Shown here piece after piece: positions 34,091 through 43,943 of a stretch of 64,000 nt of DNA (within the stretch, counting starts at the first letter, position 1; each line of letters begins with the position of its first letter). The notes under the pieces are model-generated. The model was not told the DNA's origin and searched no databases. It worked only from the letters and a program-made list of their open reading frames with translations. This DNA is from Thermomonas aquatica (GTDB lineage: Bacteria > Pseudomonadota > Gammaproteobacteria > Xanthomonadales > Xanthomonadaceae). Where the stretch lies: positions 1,951,001-2,015,000 of the forward strand of contig NZ_CP040871.1 in the NCBI RefSeq assembly GCF_006337105.1, read 5' to 3'. The position numbers and the translations under genes are program-made.

Positions 34091-34116
34091 TGACCTCCGT
34101 GGATCGGAGCCGATGC

Positions 34117-34122
34117 TATCCT
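34117..34122 (+). promoter_or_regulatory. putative extended -10 of the cNMP/GGDEF gene
   Basis: TGCTATCCT (extended -10 TGC-TATCCT) lies 29 nt before the GTG at 34152. If it is used, transcription starts downstream of the in-frame ATG at 34113, which supports the GTG start. A TTGACC is present at 34090 but with a 21-nt spacer, too long for a standard -35. Confidence 0.35.
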
Positions 34123-34151
34123 GCGGATCTAATCGTCTCGGGGGGCGCGGG

Positions 34152-35168
34152 GTGGGAGAGGGCGTGGCCGCAATCGCACAGGACGTCGCCGGCACCCGCG
34201 ATCCGGGCGATCCGCATTCGCCCGCCCTGACCGACGCCGAATACGCGCTGTTCGCGCAGGTCGCGCGGACCCGGCGGGTCGAAGCCGGCCAGTACCTGTT
34301 CCGTCGCGGCGACCTCGGCACCGCGATGTTCGTGATCGCCAGCGGCGCGGTCGACCTCGACTTCGGCGACGACCTGGTCGGCAAGCGCCTTGCCGCGCGC
34401 GAATTCCTGGGCGAACTCGGCCTGCTGATCGGCGACCATGCCCGCAGCGCCGATGCCACCGTGGCCGAATCCGGCGTGTTGCTGGAACTGGGCCGCGTGG
34501 AATTCGATGCGTTGGCTGCGCGCGACCCGCAACTGCTCACCCAGTTCCTGCGTCGCGCGATCATGCGCGTGGTGTTCAACGAACAGGCGCTGATCGCCCG
34601 CCTGCGCCGCCGCAACCAGGAATTGCAGTCCACCCTGGACACCTTGCGCGCCACCGCGCACCGGCTCAACCAGACCGAGGCGCTGACCCGCACCGACGAG
34701 CTCACCGGCCTGGCCAACCGCCGCGGCTTCGGCACCCACATCGAACAGCGCCGCCGCAACAGCACGCTGGCCGGGCTGAGCCTGATCCTGATCGACTGCG
34801 ACCGCTTCAAGCACGTCAACGACACCCATGGCCACCTGGCCGGGGATCGCGTGCTGCAGAGCGTGGCCAACCTGCTGCGCGCCGTCGCCGGTCCGGAAGA
34901 CATCGCCTGCCGGCTCGGCGGCGACGAATTCTGCCTGCTGGTGCATGGCGATCGCCGCGAAGACCTGGAACGCATGGCCGATTACATCCTGGCCAGCGCG
35001 CGCGCCCTGATGCGCATGCACAGCAACCCGCCGCAGATGACCACGCTCAGCCTGGGCGCATGCAGCCTGGGCCCGGGCCAGAACTGGGAACACTGGTACA
35101 CCCAGGCGGACACCGCCCTGTACCGCGCCAAGCGGCTGGGCGGCGATCGCGTGGAGTGGCAGGACTGA
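34152..35168 (+). CDS. diguanylate cyclase with N-terminal cyclic-nucleotide-binding domain
   Basis: About 338 residues. The N-terminal domain (~20-140) is a CRP-type cNMP-binding fold: VEAGQYLFRRGDLGTAMFVIASGAVDL, then FLGELGLLIGDHARSADA, which keeps the Gly-Glu and Arg-Ser-Ala positions of the phosphate-binding cassette. A short coiled coil (RRRNQELQSTLDTLRA) leads to a GGDEF domain with intact LGGDEF at 256-260, predicting c-di-GMP synthesis. The inhibitory I-site RxxD is not conserved (GPED). The start is uncertain: GTG 34152 is chosen because a -10-like box overlaps the ATG at 34113. It lies 10 bp before a nucleotide cyclase gene, so cAMP or cGMP made by that enzyme could be its signal. 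Confidence 0.85.
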   Translation: MGEGVAAIAQDVAGTRDPGDPHSPALTDAEYALFAQVARTRRVEAGQYLFRRGDLGTAMFVIASGAVDLDFGDDLVGKRLAAREFLGELGLLIGDHARSADATVAESGVLLELGRVEFDALAARDPQLLTQFLRRAIMRVVFNEQALIARLRRRNQELQSTLDTLRATAHRLNQTEALTRTDELTGLANRRGFGTHIEQRRRNSTLAGLSLILIDCDRFKHVNDTHGHLAGDRVLQSVANLLRAVAGPEDIACRLGGDEFCLLVHGDRREDLERMADYILASARALMRMHSNPPQMTTLSLGACSLGPGQNWEHWYTQADTALYRAKRLGGDRVEWQD

Positions 35169-35178
35169 GCCCGGGTCG

Positions 35179-37668
35179 ATGAGCGCGATCACCGACATCC
35201 CGCAGGTCCGCACCCTGCTGCTCACCGACCTGGTCGACTCCACCGCCCTGGTCGAGCGCCTGGGCGACACCGTGGCGGCGACGCTGTTCCGCGCCCACGA
35301 CCGCATCGTGCTGGAGCTGCAGCAACGCTGGCGCGGTCGCCTGATCGACCGCAGCGACGGCCTGTTGCTGATCTTCGAGCGCCCGATCGACGGCCTCGGC
35401 TTCGCCCTCGACTACGTGCGCGGCCTGCGCGACCTCGGACGCGAGCACAAGCAGACCCTGCAGGCGCGCGCCGGCCTGCACGTGGGCGAAGTGCTGGTGT
35501 GGGAGAACAGCGTCGATGCGGTGCGCCTGGGCGCCAAGTCGCTGGAAGTGGAGGGCCTGGCCAAGCCATTGGCCGGCCGCCTGATGGCGCTGGCGCGGCC
35601 CGGGCAGATCCTGCTGTCCGCCACCGCCGAGCCGCTGGCGCACCGCGCCGCCCGCGAACTGGGCGAACGCGGCGAGTTGCTGGTGTGGAAAAGCTACGGC
35701 CGCTGGCGTTTCAAGGGCGTGCCGGAAGCGCAGGAAATCTTCGAGGTCGGCGAACCGGGCCTGGCACCGCTGCGCATGCCCTCGCACACGCCCAAGGCCT
35801 GGCGCGACCTGCCGCTGTGGCGGCGGCCGGTGGCGTTGGCGGCGGAGACATTGCTGCTGGCCGGCCTTGCGCTCAGCGGCTGGTTCCTGACCCGGCCGCA
35901 ACCGGCGATCGCCTTCACCGAGCGCGATTGGGTGGTGGTCGGCGACCTGCGCAACCTCACCGGCGACCCGCGCCTGGACGATTCGCTGGAGCAGGCCTTC
36001 CGGATCAGCCTGGAGCAGTCGCGCTACGTCAACGTGCTCAGCGACCTCAAGGTGCGCGAGACGCTGCAGCGCATGCAGAAGAAGGCCGACGCGCAGGTCG
36101 ACCGTGCGGCGGGCTCGGAGATCGCCCTGCGCGATGGCGCGCGCGCGTTGCTGCTGCCCACCGTGGCCGAAGTAGGGGGCCGCCTGCGGGTCAGCGCGGA
36201 AGTCATCGACCCGCGCACCCAGACCACGGTATACGCGGTGACCGCGGACGGCAAGGGCATCGAATCCGCGCTGGGCTCGATCGACGACGTCACCGACCAG
36301 CTGCGCGAGAAGCTGGGCGAGGCGATGCAGAACGTGCAGAAGACCTCGGTGCCGCTGCCGAACGTGGCCACGCCGAGCCTGGATGCGCTGAAGGCGTTCG
36401 CGGTGGCGCGCAACATGGCCAGCACCACAGGCGACCGCGAACAGACGTTGGGCCTCTATCGCCGTGCGCTGCAACTGGATCCGCAGTTCGCGCTGGCGCA
36501 TGCGGACATAGCGCGTTTCTACGCCTCAAATGGCGAAGTGGCTCGCTCGCTCGAGGAGTGGCGCAAGGCACTCGCGATCCCGCAGCGGCTGTCGCCGCAG
36601 GAGAAGCTCGGGATCGAATTGATGGTGATGCAGCACGACGGGCCCGATCAGTATTTCCGCAAGGCGGACCAGTACCTAGCGCTGTATCCCGACGATTACC
36701 GCACCATCGGCCGGCTAGCGACGAACACATGGCACCAGCGGAATGACTTCCGTGCCGCGGAAGCATTGGTGCGCCGCACGCTGGTGCCGCAATACGAGCG
36801 TGTCGCCCTCTCCCACGACACGGTGGGCACCTACCTGCTTGCGCAGGAGAAATACGATGCGGCGCTGATCGAGTACCGCAAGGCCAGGGACCTTGGGCTC
36901 TCGGCCTATGCGGAGTACTACGCGCGTGCTTTCGATGTGCGCGGCCAGCATGCCGAGGCGGACAAGGTGTACATGGCCAGCACCAGCGGCCGCGATGGTT
37001 GGAAGGGCGAGGCCGCGGTCGTCACCTGGCTCGACCGGGGCCAGCCGGCGGATGCCGCAAAGGCCGCACAGGCTTGGGCGTCGAAGGCGGATGCGGACGG
37101 CGATGCACTGGAATCGTTGCGTGCCCGTGCCGCGATTGCGAGCTTGGCCGTGCTGTCAGGCGAGGGCGATGCGTCGGCGGCAGTGCGCGACCTTCTTGCG
37201 GCGCTCGATGCGAAGGGCGCAGAAGCAGAGGCAATCTATCCGCCGGTCGCGGTCGAGTTGCGCTTGTACGCCGGCCTGCTGGCGGGGTCTCGCGACGATC
37301 GTGCTGGCGTGGACGCCGCCCTGCGTCGCACGCAGGACAGCGCGGTGGTCCGCGACTACCCGACGGTCGGGCAACTGCAGCAGGTGGTGCTGGCGGAGCA
37401 GGAGCGCCTCGCTGGCAAGCCGCAGGCCGCCATTGCCCGACTGTCGCCGCTGGCGAAGCGGGATACCGCCCTGGTGGCCGTGCATTGGGCGCTGATGCGC
37501 GCTGCGCAAGCCTCCGGCGACAAGCTCGCGGCCAAGGCGCAGGCCGAGTGGCTGGCCACCCATCGCGGCCGCGTGTTCGTCGAGGCGACGACGGCGGAAG
37601 TCCTGCGCTTCTTCAACATCGCGGTGTCCGGCGAAGCCATCAGGAACCGCGCGCGCACCGGCGGCTGA
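35179..37668 (+). CDS. class III nucleotide cyclase/TPR membrane protein of a putative peptide modification (RiPP) system
   Basis: An 829-residue protein. Residues ~10-190 form a class III adenylate/guanylate cyclase domain: metal Asp17 in LLLTDLVDST, second Asp60 in DRSDGLLLIF, and RAGLHVGEV. The usual Asn of the transition-state pair is not obvious (LEVEGLAKPLAGRLM). One transmembrane helix lies at ~217-237. A beta-rich segment resembling the FlgO-like/TolB-N part of TPR cyclases follows (240-390), then TPR-like helices to the end. The layout and neighbours match the family annotated 'putative peptide modification system cyclase'. 'Cyclase' here means nucleotide cyclase, not peptide cyclodehydratase. 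From about base 36,480 the codon use is visibly less GC-biased (ATA, CTA, TCA, AAT occur). The product and role are unknown. Confidence 0.82.
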   Translation: MSAITDIPQVRTLLLTDLVDSTALVERLGDTVAATLFRAHDRIVLELQQRWRGRLIDRSDGLLLIFERPIDGLGFALDYVRGLRDLGREHKQTLQARAGLHVGEVLVWENSVDAVRLGAKSLEVEGLAKPLAGRLMALARPGQILLSATAEPLAHRAARELGERGELLVWKSYGRWRFKGVPEAQEIFEVGEPGLAPLRMPSHTPKAWRDLPLWRRPVALAAETLLLAGLALSGWFLTRPQPAIAFTERDWVVVGDLRNLTGDPRLDDSLEQAFRISLEQSRYVNVLSDLKVRETLQRMQKKADAQVDRAAGSEIALRDGARALLLPTVAEVGGRLRVSAEVIDPRTQTTVYAVTADGKGIESALGSIDDVTDQLREKLGEAMQNVQKTSVPLPNVATPSLDALKAFAVARNMASTTGDREQTLGLYRRALQLDPQFALAHADIARFYASNGEVARSLEEWRKALAIPQRLSPQEKLGIELMVMQHDGPDQYFRKADQYLALYPDDYRTIGRLATNTWHQRNDFRAAEALVRRTLVPQYERVALSHDTVGTYLLAQEKYDAALIEYRKARDLGLSAYAEYYARAFDVRGQHAEADKVYMASTSGRDGWKGEAAVVTWLDRGQPADAAKAAQAWASKADADGDALESLRARAAIASLAVLSGEGDASAAVRDLLAALDAKGAEAEAIYPPVAVELRLYAGLLAGSRDDRAGVDAALRRTQDSAVVRDYPTVGQLQQVVLAEQERLAGKPQAAIARLSPLAKRDTALVAVHWALMRAAQASGDKLAAKAQAEWLATHRGRVFVEATTAEVLRFFNIAVSGEAIRNRARTGG

Positions 37669-37682
37669 GCCGTCAAAACACG

Positions 37683-37713
37683 AACGCCCCGGCGATGCGC
37701 TGCCGGGGCGTTT
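37683..37713. terminator. bidirectional terminator between cyclase and precursor peptide genes
   Basis: A perfect 11-bp stem (37683-37693 with 37702-37712; AACGCCCCGGC arm) with an 8-nt loop. TTT follows on the plus strand and GTGTTTT follows on the minus strand a few bases beyond the stem. It separates two convergent genes. Confidence 0.75.
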
Positions 37714-37736
37714 GCCTGTGATGCCTGTGCTTGGGG

Positions 37737-38021
37737 TTAGAACCCTTCTTGCGCCGACAGTGCGCAGTCGTAGCCTTGGATCCCCACCATCAAGGCTTCG
37801 ATCTTGCTTCGTTGCGCCTTGATCTGGGCCGGCGAAGCCAGCGTGGTGCCGGGCTTCAATGCGACGCAGGGCGCGGCGTCCGCATGGCCGAGCAGGCGCA
37901 AGGCATCCGCTGGCGCCTTCGCGAACAGGCTGCGGAAAGTCTCGTCGCTTTCCAGCTTGTCCAGCAGCAGCTTGGCGATACGCGGCGGCAATCCAGCCGG
38001 TGCTTCCTGATCCTGTGCCAT
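37737..38021 (-). CDS. NHLP-related RiPP precursor peptide
   Basis: A 94-residue small protein. Residues ~10-46 form an amphipathic helical leader (LPPRIAKLLLDKLESDETFR, then SLFAKAPADALRLLG) of the nitrile-hydratase/Nif11-like leader type used by many RiPP precursors. A middle part with Cys52 (APCVALKPG) and a second helix lead to the C-terminal GIQGYDCALSAQEGF with Cys86, the probable core. It matches the 'NHLP-related RiPP peptide/putative modified peptide' family that occurs with this cyclase and the SagB-like dehydrogenase. The ATG at 38021 follows a strong AGGGGGA Shine-Dalgarno on the minus strand; the open frame upstream is a shadow. No leader-peptidase cleavage motif such as GG is evident at a fixed place. 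Confidence 0.78.
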   Translation of the reverse strand: MAQDQEAPAGLPPRIAKLLLDKLESDETFRSLFAKAPADALRLLGHADAAPCVALKPGTTLASPAQIKAQRSKIEALMVGIQGYDCALSAQEGF

Positions 38022-38054
38022 GGTGTTCCCCCTGTTGATTGGAACGCGGACAAT

Positions 38055-38081
38055 ACCACCGTATCGGGACATTGCGGTGGT
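38055..38081. promoter_or_regulatory. inverted repeat in the divergent RiPP promoter region
   Basis: ACCACCG (38055-38061) and CGGTGGT (38075-38081) are perfect inverted arms 13 nt apart, in the 67-bp gap between the precursor and dehydrogenase starts. The spacing (centre to centre two helical turns) suits a dimeric repressor or activator. A GACAAT box overlaps the left arm. Confidence 0.4.
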
Positions 38082-38088
38082 GCGACAC

Positions 38089-39324
38089 ATGTTGATCAGG
38101 CGCTGCGCCGTGGTGTGGCTGGAGCCACGCGAGATAGCGAACTTCCAGTTCGATGACCTGCTTGCGGGCGGAACCGGCATCGTCAGCCGGCTGGCGTGGT
38201 TCGCGCACGCACCGTACCTGTCGATGGCAGTGGAGGTCGATGCCGAGCACGTGCCGCTGCTGGGCGCGCTAGGACCGGTGGATTGGGTCGAGCGGGACAT
38301 GCTGGATGCGCGCATCGGGCCCGATGCGGTGGACGGATTGCTCGAAGCGGGATTGCTGTTGGCGAAGCCGACCGGTGACGACGCGCCTGCCGACGAGGGC
38401 TTCCGCGCGATCGGCTGGCATGCGCCGGCCGCCGTGGCGCACATGGCCGCGCGCTGGGAAGGCATCGACGGTCCGCAAGGCATGGCCGAACAGGACGTGG
38501 ATACGAACGAAGGATTGCTGCGCAATCACGGCGCGCCGCCGCCGCATGTGATCCCATCGCTGCAGCCCGATGCGGAGATCGGCTTGCCGCGCATCGAACG
38601 CGACGCGTTCGACGCCTTGCTCGACACCCGCGCGACCTGCCGCAACTTCGATACCGATGCGGTTGTTCCGCTGGCGACGTTTTCGCAACTGATGGCGCGC
38701 GTGTTCGGCGCGCGCGGCATCGGCCGCCCAGCGCCCGGCTTCGACGTGTACAAGCGCACCAGCCCGTCGGGCGGCTCGCTGCACCCGACCGACTGCTACC
38801 TGATCGTGCAGCGGGTGGAGGGCATCGCGCCAGGCCTGTACCGCTACCGCATCGATACACATGCGCTGGAACCGGTGACGCCACGCATCGAGGCACCGCA
38901 ATCCGGCGATGTCGGTACGCGCGCGCTGGACGGCGCGCCTGCACGCGCATGGCGCAAGGAGGAGCTGCGCGCCTTCGCCAGAATCGCCGTAGCCGGGCAG
39001 GACTTCTTCGCCGATGCGCCGGTGTTGTGCGTGCTGGCGCCGCGCTTCCATCGCAATTTCTGGAAGTACCGCAACCATGCCAAGGCCTACCGCGTCTGCG
39101 TGCTCGACGTCGGCCACCTTTCGCAAACGCTGCAGCTGTGCGCGACGCAGGCCGGGCTTGGGCCGTTCGTGACCGGCGCGATCAACGAGGTCGACCTCGA
39201 GCGCGCGTTCGGCATGACCCCATATACGCAGAGTCCGTTGGCCGTCTGCGGCTTCGGCCAGCGCGCGGCGACGTTGGTGAAATCCGAATTCGATCCCAAT
39301 CGACTGGTCTGGCCGCGCGACTGA
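38089..39324 (+). CDS. SagB-like FMN dehydrogenase, putative peptide maturation enzyme
   Basis: A 411-residue protein. The N-terminal ~165 residues have no recognised fold; they open with MLIRRCAVVWLEPRE. From ~170 on it is a nitroreductase/SagB-type flavin dehydrogenase: LLDTRATCRNFDTD (FMN phosphate-binding Arg), KRTSPSGGSLHPTDCYLIV, GLYRYRIDTHALE, and a C-terminal AGLGPFVTGAINE. SagB enzymes oxidise azolines to azoles in thiazole/oxazole peptides, together with a YcaO cyclodehydratase; no YcaO gene is in this window. Neighbourhood and domain plan match the 'putative peptide maturation dehydrogenase' family. ATG 38089 is chosen; GTGs at 38077 and 38080 are alternatives. Confidence 0.8.
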   Translation: MLIRRCAVVWLEPREIANFQFDDLLAGGTGIVSRLAWFAHAPYLSMAVEVDAEHVPLLGALGPVDWVERDMLDARIGPDAVDGLLEAGLLLAKPTGDDAPADEGFRAIGWHAPAAVAHMAARWEGIDGPQGMAEQDVDTNEGLLRNHGAPPPHVIPSLQPDAEIGLPRIERDAFDALLDTRATCRNFDTDAVVPLATFSQLMARVFGARGIGRPAPGFDVYKRTSPSGGSLHPTDCYLIVQRVEGIAPGLYRYRIDTHALEPVTPRIEAPQSGDVGTRALDGAPARAWRKEELRAFARIAVAGQDFFADAPVLCVLAPRFHRNFWKYRNHAKAYRVCVLDVGHLSQTLQLCATQAGLGPFVTGAINEVDLERAFGMTPYTQSPLAVCGFGQRAATLVKSEFDPNRLVWPRD

Positions 39325-42029: not shown

Positions 42030-43943
42030 CTAGCTCTCGACCCGATCGCGCCCTTGCTGCTTGGCGCGATACAGCGCGGCATCGGCGCGGTCGATCAATG
42101 CGTCGCAGCTGTCGCCGGACTTGCGCGCCTGCGCGGCGCCGATGCTGACGCTGACGGCGAGCGTCGGGTCGATGTCGTCGAAGCGCAGGCCGTGCGCGGC
42201 CTCGCGCAGGCGTCCCGCCACCAGCAACGCCTGTTCGAGGGTGGTGTCCGGGCAGACCACCACGAATTCCTCGCCGCCGATCCGCCCCAGGGGGTCGCGT
42301 CCGCGCAGTTGCGCCTGCCAGACCGCGGCGGTGGCGCGCAGCACCTTGTCGCCGGCGGCATGGCCATAGCGGTCGTTGATCGACTTGAAGTGGTCGAGGT
42401 CGAGCATCAACAGCGACAACGGCGTGCCGTTGCGGGCGGACGCGTCGAGCGCGCGCGCGGCCTCGCGTTCGATCCCGGGCCGGTTGGCGATGCCGGTGAG
42501 CGGGTCGAGCAGGGTCAGGTCGCGCAGGTGGCGCGACTTGCGCCATTGCCGCCATGCCAGCGAGGACAGCAGCGCGACGAACAGCGCCGCGAGGACGATG
42601 GCGAGCGATTGCCAGCGCCGCACCGCCTCGAGGGTGGCGACTTCCTGCTGCTTGCTGTCCGCTTCCGCGCGCAGTTGCCGGTTCTCGAAATCGCGGCGGC
42701 GGATCTCGTATTCGTATTCGAGCATGCGGCCCTGTTCCAGCCGCATCTTGCCTTGCAGTTTCAGTTGCAGGTCGGCATAGCGCTTGTAGTCGGACAAGGC
42801 GCTCGCGGTCCAGCCGAGCGCTTCCTGGCTGGCGGCCTGCGCCTTGTAGAGCATGGCCAGGTAGCGGTCGTTGCCGTTGCGCTCGATCAGCGGCAGCGCC
42901 TGCCGATACCGCTCCATCGCCGCGGTGTGCTGCCCCTGCCGTGCCAGCGCCTGGCCGGTCAGCATCAGCAGCATGTCGTCGTTCGAGGTGTCCCGGTCGG
43001 CGGCGAAACCCGCGCGCGCCTGCGCCAGCATCGCCAGCGCGCCGTCCGGATCGCCCAGGGCGATCTGCGCCTCCGCAAGGCCGAGCATCGCGGCGTTGCG
43101 GTTGTAGGCGTCGCCATGTTGGCGCGCCACGCGCTCCGCTTCGCGGAAGGTCGCGAACGCCTTGTCCTGCGAACCGGATTCGCCCTGCAGGAAGCCCAGC
43201 TGGATCAGGTAGGTCGCCACGCCTTCCCAGTCGTTCCTGTCCTGCATGCGCTGCAACGCGGCGCGGATCAGGCGCTCGGCCTGCTCGCTGTCGCCCATGC
43301 GCCGGTAGGCGACCGCCATGCTCAGCATCAGCGGCTCGACTTCGCGATCGATCCCGGCCTGCCGGTAGGCGGCGCGCGCGCGCTGGAAATCCAGCATCGC
43401 CTTGGCCTGTTCGCCCAGCAGCGAGAGCAGGTCGCCGCGCATCTCCAGCGCTTCGGCGAGCAGCTGCGGTTCCTGTCCTTCCTGCAGCAACGCGATCGCC
43501 TTCTCCACTTCGGGCAGGCCGCGCTGGGTGCCGCTGGTCAGCTGGATGTAGTTGGTGCGGCAGAGGATCGCCCGCGCCTCCGACGCCGGGTCGCGGGCGT
43601 CGCGGGCCAGCTTCAACGCCGTGTCCGAATACTCCAGGCCGCGTTCGATGTCCTTCCACTTGCTGCTGCCGCAGTAGACCGAGCGGAAGCGCACGTCGCG
43701 CGCCGGATCGTCCGCAGGCAGCAGCGCGCGCAAGCGTTCGAGGTCGGCGTCGTAGGCGTCGCTGCTGCTGTCCAGCGATTCCGGGCCGGTCACCTTGCGC
43801 AAGGTCGCGTCGAAGGCGGCGGCGCGGGTGCTGGTCGGCTCATCCGTGCCCGGATGCGGCGCCGCGAAGGCGCAGGCCAGCGCTGGCCATGCCAGCAGCA
43901 TGGCCAACAGGCTTGCCTTCGATGAATGCGGTTGCGTGCGCAC
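42030..43943 (-). CDS. TPR-containing membrane diguanylate cyclase
   Basis: A 637-residue protein. Signal peptide 1-28 (LAWPALACAFAA); a periplasmic region of TPR-like helical repeats (~60-410); a coiled-coil stalk (MRLEQGRMLEYEYEIRRRD); a transmembrane helix at ~445-463; and a cytoplasmic GGDEF domain with GGEEF at 556-560. The I-site RGRD lies in front of it, so product inhibition by c-di-GMP is expected. It should sense a periplasmic signal or partner and make c-di-GMP. Convergent to glnB with a 5-bp gap between stops. Confidence 0.9.
   Translation of the reverse strand: MRTQPHSSKASLLAMLLAWPALACAFAAPHPGTDEPTSTRAAAFDATLRKVTGPESLDSSSDAYDADLERLRALLPADDPARDVRFRSVYCGSSKWKDIERGLEYSDTALKLARDARDPASEARAILCRTNYIQLTSGTQRGLPEVEKAIALLQEGQEPQLLAEALEMRGDLLSLLGEQAKAMLDFQRARAAYRQAGIDREVEPLMLSMAVAYRRMGDSEQAERLIRAALQRMQDRNDWEGVATYLIQLGFLQGESGSQDKAFATFREAERVARQHGDAYNRNAAMLGLAEAQIALGDPDGALAMLAQARAGFAADRDTSNDDMLLMLTGQALARQGQHTAAMERYRQALPLIERNGNDRYLAMLYKAQAASQEALGWTASALSDYKRYADLQLKLQGKMRLEQGRMLEYEYEIRRRDFENRQLRAEADSKQQEVATLEAVRRWQSLAIVLAALFVALLSSLAWRQWRKSRHLRDLTLLDPLTGIANRPGIEREAARALDASARNGTPLSLLMLDLDHFKSINDRYGHAAGDKVLRATAAVWQAQLRGRDPLGRIGGEEFVVVCPDTTLEQALLVAGRLREAAHGLRFDDIDPTLAVSVSIGAAQARKSGDSCDALIDRADAALYRAKQQGRDRVES

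Follow-up and report, generated by a model that had tools for sequence, protein, structure and literature searches.

A four-gene locus of Thermomonas aquatica with a putative peptide modification system and a candidate receptor guanylyl cyclase of split ancestry

The window analysed here is a stretch of 64,000 nucleotides of Thermomonas aquatica (contig NZ_CP040871.1, positions 1,951,001 to 2,015,000), and it carries a locus in which a membrane cyclase, a small NHLP-type precursor and a SagB-like dehydrogenase lie side by side. Proteins of these three kinds are annotated, by model names only, as a putative peptide modification system (NCBIfam TIGR04510, TIGR04509 and TIGR04511) of the ribosomally synthesized and post-translationally modified peptide (RiPP) type. 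A preliminary description of the locus had placed the three proteins in these families, in the order plus, minus, plus; both points are borne out, and all three curated cut-offs are passed. A fourth gene, which was overlooked at that stage and is not among the three annotated families, ends with its stop codon 10 bp before the cyclase start and encodes a cyclic nucleotide monophosphate (cNMP)-binding GGDEF protein. We describe here this four-gene locus, the ancestry of its cyclase gene in relatives, and the peptide-signalling role that this ancestry suggests.

The locus and its occurrence

The genes and their parts are as follows, in window coordinates.

34113..35168, plus strand: cNMP-binding and GGDEF protein, 351 aa (Pfam PF00027 and PF00990), counterpart of XC_0249; a predicted diguanylate cyclase stimulated by cyclic GMP (cGMP), and the output of the locus
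35179..37668, plus strand: TIGR04510 membrane cyclase, 829 aa, counterpart of XC_0250 (941 bits, cut-off 400)
35200..35778, plus strand: catalytic half of the cyclase, aa 8-200, which varies together with the GGDEF gene and is predicted to be cytoplasmic
35830..35886, plus strand: single predicted transmembrane segment of the cyclase, aa 218-236, from hydropathy
35899..37665, plus strand: predicted periplasmic half of the cyclase with TPR repeats, aa 241-829, from sub-threshold Pfam TPR matches, TPR proteins in the PDB, and co-variation
37737..38021, minus strand: NHLP-type precursor, 94 aa, with Cys52 and Cys86 (TIGR04509, 55 bits, cut-off 34); helices within residues 13-79 of a low-confidence model
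37740..37781, minus strand: aa 81-94 of the precursor, a C-terminal tail that is predicted to be disordered (predicted local distance difference test, pLDDT, below 50) and to be the core peptide
38022..38088, no strand: 67-bp divergent spacer from precursor start to dehydrogenase start, where promoters are expected
38089..39324, plus strand: SagB-like flavin mononucleotide (FMN) dehydrogenase, 411 aa, with a conserved W-K-Y-R motif (TIGR04511, 464 bits, cut-off 240); predicted precursor-modifying enzyme

Residues 401-829 of the cyclase are hypervariable and form its predicted sensor. The dehydrogenase start at 38089 is the more likely one because many close homologues have 409-413 residues, and it would therefore leave the dehydrogenase divergent from the precursor across the 67-bp spacer. 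The 94-residue precursor gene is enclosed by a mechanical open reading frame of 262 codons on the minus strand (37737-38525). Among named organisms, the closest homologues of the precursor belong to Thermomonas.

The survey of occurrence covered 247 family genomes, an even draw from a larger group; presence meant a match over the cut-off for TIGR04510, E <=0.001 for TIGR04509 and TIGR04511, and E <=1e-60 for the GGDEF orthologue. Over-cut-off matches were found in 149 genomes for TIGR04511, 151 for TIGR04510 and 152 for TIGR04509, and the GGDEF orthologue in 151. The three named families occur together in 149 of the 247 genomes, all four genes in 142 and none in 85, a nearly all-or-none pattern, and all these figures count presence and not adjacency; the precursor was found in all 149 genomes with an over-cut-off dehydrogenase. 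The expected co-occurrence in relatives is confirmed by these counts, and the cyclase is indeed a near-obligatory neighbour. In a class-wide draw of 274 genomes, TIGR04511 was present in three, all from the same family and one of them the window's own genome.

For comparison, 121 loci were fetched from genomes already known to have matches. One cyclase and one dehydrogenase are present in 110 of them, and the exact order of GGDEF gene, cyclase, reversed precursor and dehydrogenase is kept in 87 of these 110; in 18 of the 23 others the deviation is limited to additional precursors, a precursor that is turned or a dehydrogenase that is reversed. The comparison set consists of the 107 fetched loci that have a single cyclase, a single dehydrogenase, one or more precursors and a GGDEF gene (14 loci were excluded as arrays, as fragments, or for having no GGDEF gene in the stretch), and where a locus had several precursors the one nearest the cyclase was used. 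The main mirror-tree table is confined to the 99 of these 107 loci that also had isocitrate lyase. Genus labels cover 11 genera in the analysis of swapped pairs and 8 genera in the within-genus correlations and the comparison of tails.

Split ancestry of the cyclase gene

The cyclase gene is chimeric in ancestry, an observation that is new here: its catalytic half goes with the GGDEF gene, and its TPR half with the precursor and the dehydrogenase. The two halves lie on either side of one predicted transmembrane-like segment, which was found in 106 of the 107 cyclases, with positive charge greater before than after the segment in all 107; the TPR half is therefore predicted to be periplasmic. 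The mean distance between loci is 0.70 for the TPR region (residues 401-829) and 0.28 for the catalytic half. Out of 104 tree splits for the 107 loci, the catalytic half shares 45 with the GGDEF gene, while the TPR region shares 38 with the dehydrogenase and 37 with the precursor, and these two share 34 with each other. Far fewer are held in common by the catalytic half and the TPR region (13), the catalytic half and the precursor (12), or the GGDEF gene and the precursor (13), and in 20 label shuffles of the precursor tree at most one split was in common with the TPR tree.

Distances tell the same story. Over the 99 loci, the rank correlation of the GGDEF gene is 0.79 with the catalytic half and 0.46 with the TPR region, while that of the precursor is 0.55 with the TPR region and 0.31 with the catalytic half. 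An earlier mirror-tree of 41 loci had given a larger contrast (precursor with the whole periplasmic half 0.83, with the catalytic half 0.33), and the larger set is preferred. In 300 bootstrap resamplings of the 107 loci, the difference in favour of the catalytic half was 0.34 (0.23 to 0.44) for the GGDEF gene, and that in favour of the TPR region was 0.20 (0.06 to 0.34) for the precursor. Among 190 pairs whose catalytic halves are more than 90% identical, the correlation is 0.77 for precursor and TPR region, 0.84 for catalytic half and GGDEF gene, and -0.11 for TPR region and GGDEF gene. Within genera, precursor and TPR region correlate at 0.50-0.88 in seven of eight, and in 21 pairs with dehydrogenases more than 85% identical the value is 0.91. 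Seven loci with a reversed dehydrogenase, from six genera, form one group in the TPR (support 0.70), dehydrogenase (1.0) and precursor (0.975) trees, and are scattered in the catalytic and GGDEF trees. These loci (L103, L109, L112, L121, L152, L176 and L177) are a second cassette type, with short peptide tails such as GIIVFKA and GWVVFCR.

Block swaps between loci are seen in relatives, as is the split ancestry. In two loci of one genus, L152 and L190, the DNA from the glyoxylate genes across the GGDEF gene to cyclase residue 260 has 97.3% identity. No blastn match of at least 100 bp was found over what remains of the cyclase, over the precursor or over the dehydrogenase, whose orientation is reversed as well; 98.7% identity resumes 369 bp past the dehydrogenase. 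In protein, the GGDEF proteins are 99% and the catalytic halves 100% identical, against 22% for the TPR region, 25% for the precursor and 32% for the dehydrogenase; the closest relatives of the L152 versions of these last three are in L176 and L177, from another genus. Pairs of this kind, defined by an identity of 85% or more between catalytic halves and of 50% or less between TPR regions, make up 141 of 367 within-genus pairs in 11 genera, and are not independent of each other. Every one of the 141 shows a precursor difference of 28% or more, and has its left break within the cyclase gene, beyond the membrane segment, at residue 257 or later (median 410); the right break, located in 117 of the 141, lies at a median of 261 bp past the dehydrogenase. 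Regardless of function, one receptor gene whose ancestry is split on either side of its membrane segment is a clear evolutionary observation.

Linkage could be the whole explanation, with the block from TPR half to dehydrogenase exchanged through conserved flanks that serve as recombination arms, and no interaction between TPR half and peptide needed. Such exchange is favoured by the adjacency of TPR half, precursor and dehydrogenase, by conserved flanks on both sides (GGDEF gene with catalytic half, and the downstream sequence), and by the independent variation of TPR region and precursor in the window's genus. On the other hand, the position of the left break in all 141 swap-like pairs, the far greater variability of the TPR region than of the catalytic half, and the 254 within-genus pairs with precursors at least 50% different, none of which keeps its TPR region within 25%, speak against linkage alone, though none of them is conclusive. 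We regard linkage alone as unlikely.

A cyclic GMP pathway and a candidate peptide ligand

Judged by residue numbering, the cyclase and the GGDEF gene match a published pathway from cGMP to cyclic di-GMP (c-di-GMP), that of XC_0250 and XC_0249 in Xanthomonas campestris (PMC3770947); the same two genes are adjacent there, and the catalytic and cGMP-contact residues are kept in the window's proteins. In the main text of that paper, XC_0250 is reported to be a guanylate cyclase whose TPR domain has a function that is uncharacterised (PMC3770947, 2013), and the linked XC_0249 to bind cGMP via its cNMP domain and then to make more c-di-GMP, with effects on biofilm and virulence (PMC3770947). The same main text names no ligand for the TPR domain and does not contain the words "peptide", "operon" or "XC_0251", and a 2019 review still terms the TPR domain uncharacterized; XC_0249 also interacts with RpfG, the diffusible signal factor (DSF) regulator, according to a passage of a 2013 review. 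The earlier statement that the locus has no characterised member does not survive for the cyclase, while its companion, that there is no described product, stands as far as the Creative Commons-licensed papers in PMC go. Nor was a link between the function-less RiPP-type locus and this cGMP pathway found in the same literature.

The identity of the counterparts rests on residue numbering in 11 named contigs, from other Xanthomonas species among others. Six XC_0250 residues (D41, D71, L73, A150, L157, A161), read from one Met, are all present in X. euvesicatoria (L169) and X. phaseoli (L172), and five of the six in X. nasturtii, X. prunicola and X. bromi; L171 has six of six, but only when read from a Leu, and the remaining five contigs reach 2 to 4 at best. 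The seven cGMP contacts of XC_0249 (F73, E90, L91, H98, V142, N145, E146) are complete in the upstream gene of L164, L166, L168, L169 and L172, which are the same five loci that fit XC_0250 from a Met, while L173 has six of seven and the other five contigs, which differ in N-terminal length, have two. The scores of the six non-fitting loci (mostly 2 to 4 of 6 and 2 of 7) also make the chance level of such a numbering match visible. By alignment, the window's cyclase keeps the six residues as D30, D60, L62, A139, L146 and A150, and its GGDEF protein keeps the contacts as F84, E101, L102, H109, V153, N156 and E157, with GGDEF at 269; the best PDB match of this protein is a cNMP domain, 5h5o. Across the 107 loci F73, E90, L91, H98, E146 and the GGDEF motif are invariant, and N145 and V142 are each kept in 89. 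Production and sensing of cGMP are predicted for T. aquatica.

The GGDEF motif is altered in three of seven orthologues from cassette-free genomes and in none of the 107 loci with a cassette; the sample is small and not independent. The seven come from eight genomes that have the GGDEF orthologue and no over-cut-off cyclase, the eighth having a fragmented cyclase (L108). The altered motifs are GDDEF in L237, DDDEF in L238 and GGDTF in L239; the first two proteins keep all seven cGMP contacts and the third keeps three. The cyclase family also has changes at I53, L124 and P127 (trimmed alignment of 62 proteins), which we take, from the canonical motif, to be the positions that usually hold the substrate Lys/Asp and the transition-state Asn; a dead cyclase was set aside, XC_0250 being reported active. 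A structure alignment with Ma1120/Rv1900c puts an Asp near the purine-specifying position of the window's cyclase, and was not used, the gap placement being ambiguous.

Since the TPR half is predicted to be periplasmic and is inherited with the precursor and the dehydrogenase, it fits a peptide receptor. The peptide is likely a signal that the switch protein senses, and we put at about an even chance that the four genes form a peptide-signalling unit, with the modified peptide as ligand and the guanylyl cyclase as its receptor. In such a unit, the NHLP-type precursor would be made and its tail modified by the SagB-like dehydrogenase, and the peptide would then be exported to the periplasm or the medium, where it would bind the hypervariable TPR half, as the shared ancestry in relatives suggests. 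The cytoplasmic half would produce cGMP, as reported for XC_0250 in Xanthomonas, and the cNMP-GGDEF protein would bind it, so that c-di-GMP would rise and biofilm and gene expression would be affected, as reported for XC_0249. The fuller version, a bacterial peptide hormone, falls somewhat short of an even chance. Here the NHLP peptide, once modified by the dehydrogenase, would be the cognate ligand of a receptor guanylyl cyclase analogous to the natriuretic-peptide receptors of animals, and this receptor would set c-di-GMP by way of a diguanylate cyclase gated by cGMP; peptide-receptor types would be specific to lineages and be swapped as blocks whose break lies inside the receptor gene. Were this true, the XC_0250 cGMP pathway would gain its missing input, and TIGR04509-04511 a first function. 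Should the peptide be the ligand, peptide-activated receptor guanylyl cyclases would exist in bacteria, and a family of environmental and plant-associated bacteria would have peptide communication groups that set c-di-GMP.

One suggestion of the preliminary description runs in the opposite direction, with a cyclic nucleotide switching peptide production. In such a reading the cyclase would sense something else, and cGMP would act via c-di-GMP on a modified peptide that is an ordinary secreted product. Tight linkage and co-occurrence of the genes fit this as well. Xanthomonas has in Clp a regulator of CRP type that is responsive to c-di-GMP, and CRP-like sites with at most two mismatches occur in the 200 bp that precede the precursor's aligned start in 11% of the 107 loci against 5% in shuffled sequence (18% against 5% for the GGDEF gene). 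The excess is a small one, shuffling of single nucleotides makes a lenient control, and part of the sequence in these stretches can be coding; with so weak an excess, control of the precursor by CRP or Clp was rejected as a candidate. The opposite direction also leaves unexplained why the periplasmic half shares its ancestry with precursor and dehydrogenase and not with its own catalytic half, and we consider it unlikely. A second suggestion, the TPR part as a maturation scaffold, is weaker than a receptor role on the same evidence of topology and co-inheritance.

Several results weigh against the peptide as ligand, first of all in the window's own genus, where precursor and TPR region show no coupling (r 0.06, 36 pairs) while precursor and dehydrogenase are coupled at 0.75; the pherotype-like co-inheritance seen in relatives is absent there. 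This leaves two readings: mutually compatible peptide-receptor types within that genus, or linkage as the cause of the coupling seen elsewhere. The contrast is small in genus g43 (precursor-TPR 0.50, precursor-catalytic 0.40), the dehydrogenase-TPR correlation is just 0.38 in g16 and 0.32 in g30, and of the 32 within-genus pairs whose precursors are at least 75% identical, 4 differ by 40% or more in the TPR region. When the seven reversed loci are left aside, all pairs give 0.52 for precursor-TPR against 0.43 for precursor-catalytic, and the dehydrogenase follows the catalytic half (0.74) more than the TPR region (0.69); its bootstrap difference in favour of the TPR region, 0.12 (-0.05 to 0.30), includes zero, with 8% of the 300 resamplings at or below it. 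Controlling for the dehydrogenase as well lowers the partial correlation of precursor and TPR region from 0.46 to 0.20. Because the TPR half, precursor and dehydrogenase are neighbours, block transfer alone suffices for their co-variation; it is, moreover, with its tail end that the precursor gene lies closest to the cyclase. The case is carried by the within-genus contrast in the other genera.

A pair of g46 loci bears on the same question. L219 and L220 retain the dehydrogenase (98%), the GGDEF protein (95%) and the catalytic half (100%), while the TPR region is at 43% and the peptide tail has changed, the leader less so. They separate the receptor-tail link from the dehydrogenase, with the reservation that each locus has several precursors and that the tail-encoding end is, here too, the one nearest the cyclase. 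In the convergent layout of cyclase and precursor the sensor end of the cyclase lies beside the tail end of the precursor, and a matching pair would be able to move as one block.

The biochemical side has its own points against a ligand. Cyclase activity rests on one paper from another genus, and in Xcc (X. campestris) the cyclase domain alone restored biofilm according to its main text (PMC3770947), so the TPR half is not essential for biofilm output. A passage of the 2013 review, differing from the EMBO J paper, has motility unaffected by single loss of XC_0249 and biofilm unaffected by its double loss with XC_0420. Export is a further difficulty: no C39 peptidase (PF03412, E <=0.01) was found in the whole genome, as the preliminary description had suspected in noting no visible exporter or protease, other exporters and proteases not having been searched genome-wide, and a signal-like hydrophobic segment is present in none of the 107 precursors. 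The window's precursor has no GG. These three absences would suit an intracellular partner, a modified small protein that directly regulates the cyclase or the dehydrogenase with no secreted peptide, which we hold very unlikely given that the co-varying half of the cyclase is predicted to lie outside the membrane. An exporter or protease partner was also sought among the conserved neighbours. Malate synthase, isocitrate lyase, a LysR regulator and an Mg-chelatase-like AAA protein, all of which flank the locus in the window, are the ones that were named.

Precursor, dehydrogenase and related systems

The precursor model is weak (pLDDT 64), which again weighs against a ligand, with helices within residues 13-79 followed by the disordered tail; its Foldseek list, with RiPP precursors and nitrile hydratase (NHase) alpha chains foremost, is headed by SonA, NHase alpha, DprE2 and Os1348, and every PDB match has E >1. 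Against the Os1348 family (NF038399) the precursor scores 14.7 bits, below the 40-bit cut-off. The dehydrogenase model (pLDDT 85) is nearest to ThcOx, BmdC and McbC, less near to the AlbAB cyclodipeptide oxidase, and has the nitroreductase fold with the K-Y motif of SagB, McbC and ThcOx, along with the conserved W-K-Y-R motif. Its residues 1-95 may be a leader-binding RiPP recognition element (RRE): the model has strands and then helices there, which we take to be the RRE order, and ThcOx and BmdC align from residue 1.

A dehydrogenase of SagB type without a YcaO partner had been pointed out at the start, and none was found in the whole genome (PF02624, E <=1; 3.0 Mb, one contig, 100% complete), so that an azole peptide with a distant YcaO was rejected. 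As, in addition, 9 of 107 precursor tails have no Cys, Ser or Thr past the first five residues, common azole chemistry is unlikely. Our guess, by analogy with cyclodipeptide oxidases, would be a Calpha-Cbeta dehydrogenation. The dehydrogenases of thiazole/oxazole-modified microcins and linear azole-containing peptides (TOMM/LAP) and ThcOx share the fold and the conserved K-Y pair; the window's genome differs in its lack of a YcaO match, and it differs from exported NHLP/proteusin RiPP systems in its lack of a C39 match.

The nearest parallel in layout is ComQXPA of Bacillus, in which a modifying enzyme, a precursor, a membrane receptor and an output lie side by side, the sensor half of the receptor varying along with enzyme and precursor and the output being conserved. 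The window's locus has an FMN dehydrogenase instead of an isoprenyl transferase, an NHLP precursor, a guanylyl cyclase instead of a histidine kinase and a GGDEF protein instead of a response regulator, all in a Gram-negative bacterium; its proteins fall in other families, with no homology to ComQ, ComX, ComP or ComA. By analogy it would work like the ComQXPA pherotypes without being a member. The Pycsar anti-phage systems also pair a class III cyclase with a cNMP-domain effector, and the window's cNMP domain matches PADLOC Pycsar effectors (best E 1e-10). The window's cyclase matches no PADLOC model (E 0.001) and its effector is a diguanylate cyclase; anti-phage defence was rejected, the resemblance being confined to the cNMP domain.

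Toxin-immunity pairs show similar mosaic variation, and a bacteriocin might be encoded, with the TPR half as an immunity or export partner that co-varies with it and the cyclase reporting exposure. The Os1348 locus of Pseudomonas sp. Os17 lends this some colour: its small protein is distantly similar to the precursor, and the passages that describe it report an annotation of this protein as nitrile hydratase alpha, a SagB-type gene with no sagC or sagD homologue, and an antibiotic connection (PMC7726476). That cluster differs in having an acetyltransferase and a HEXXH-type protein and no cyclase (PMC7726476). We think a bacteriocin quite unlikely, as the locus usually occurs in one copy per genome beside glyoxylate genes (isocitrate lyase lies within the fetched stretch of 107 of the 121 loci), the TPR half is physically fused to the cyclase, and there is no C39 exporter.

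Some loci depart from the single-copy arrangement. The X. phaseoli locus (L172:5989-13991) looks decayed, its cyclase and dehydrogenase matching in separate pieces only and no precursor being found there. L115 and L151 are arrays, with several dehydrogenases and many precursors in one genome and the GGDEF orthologue elsewhere, and L151 has two cyclases. In L129:7723-9794, five similar tandem precursor genes accompany a single dehydrogenase and a single cyclase, which comes last in the order. Near the locus in the window itself, a second TPR-GGDEF protein is encoded at 42030-43943 on the minus strand (Pfam GGDEF and TPR).

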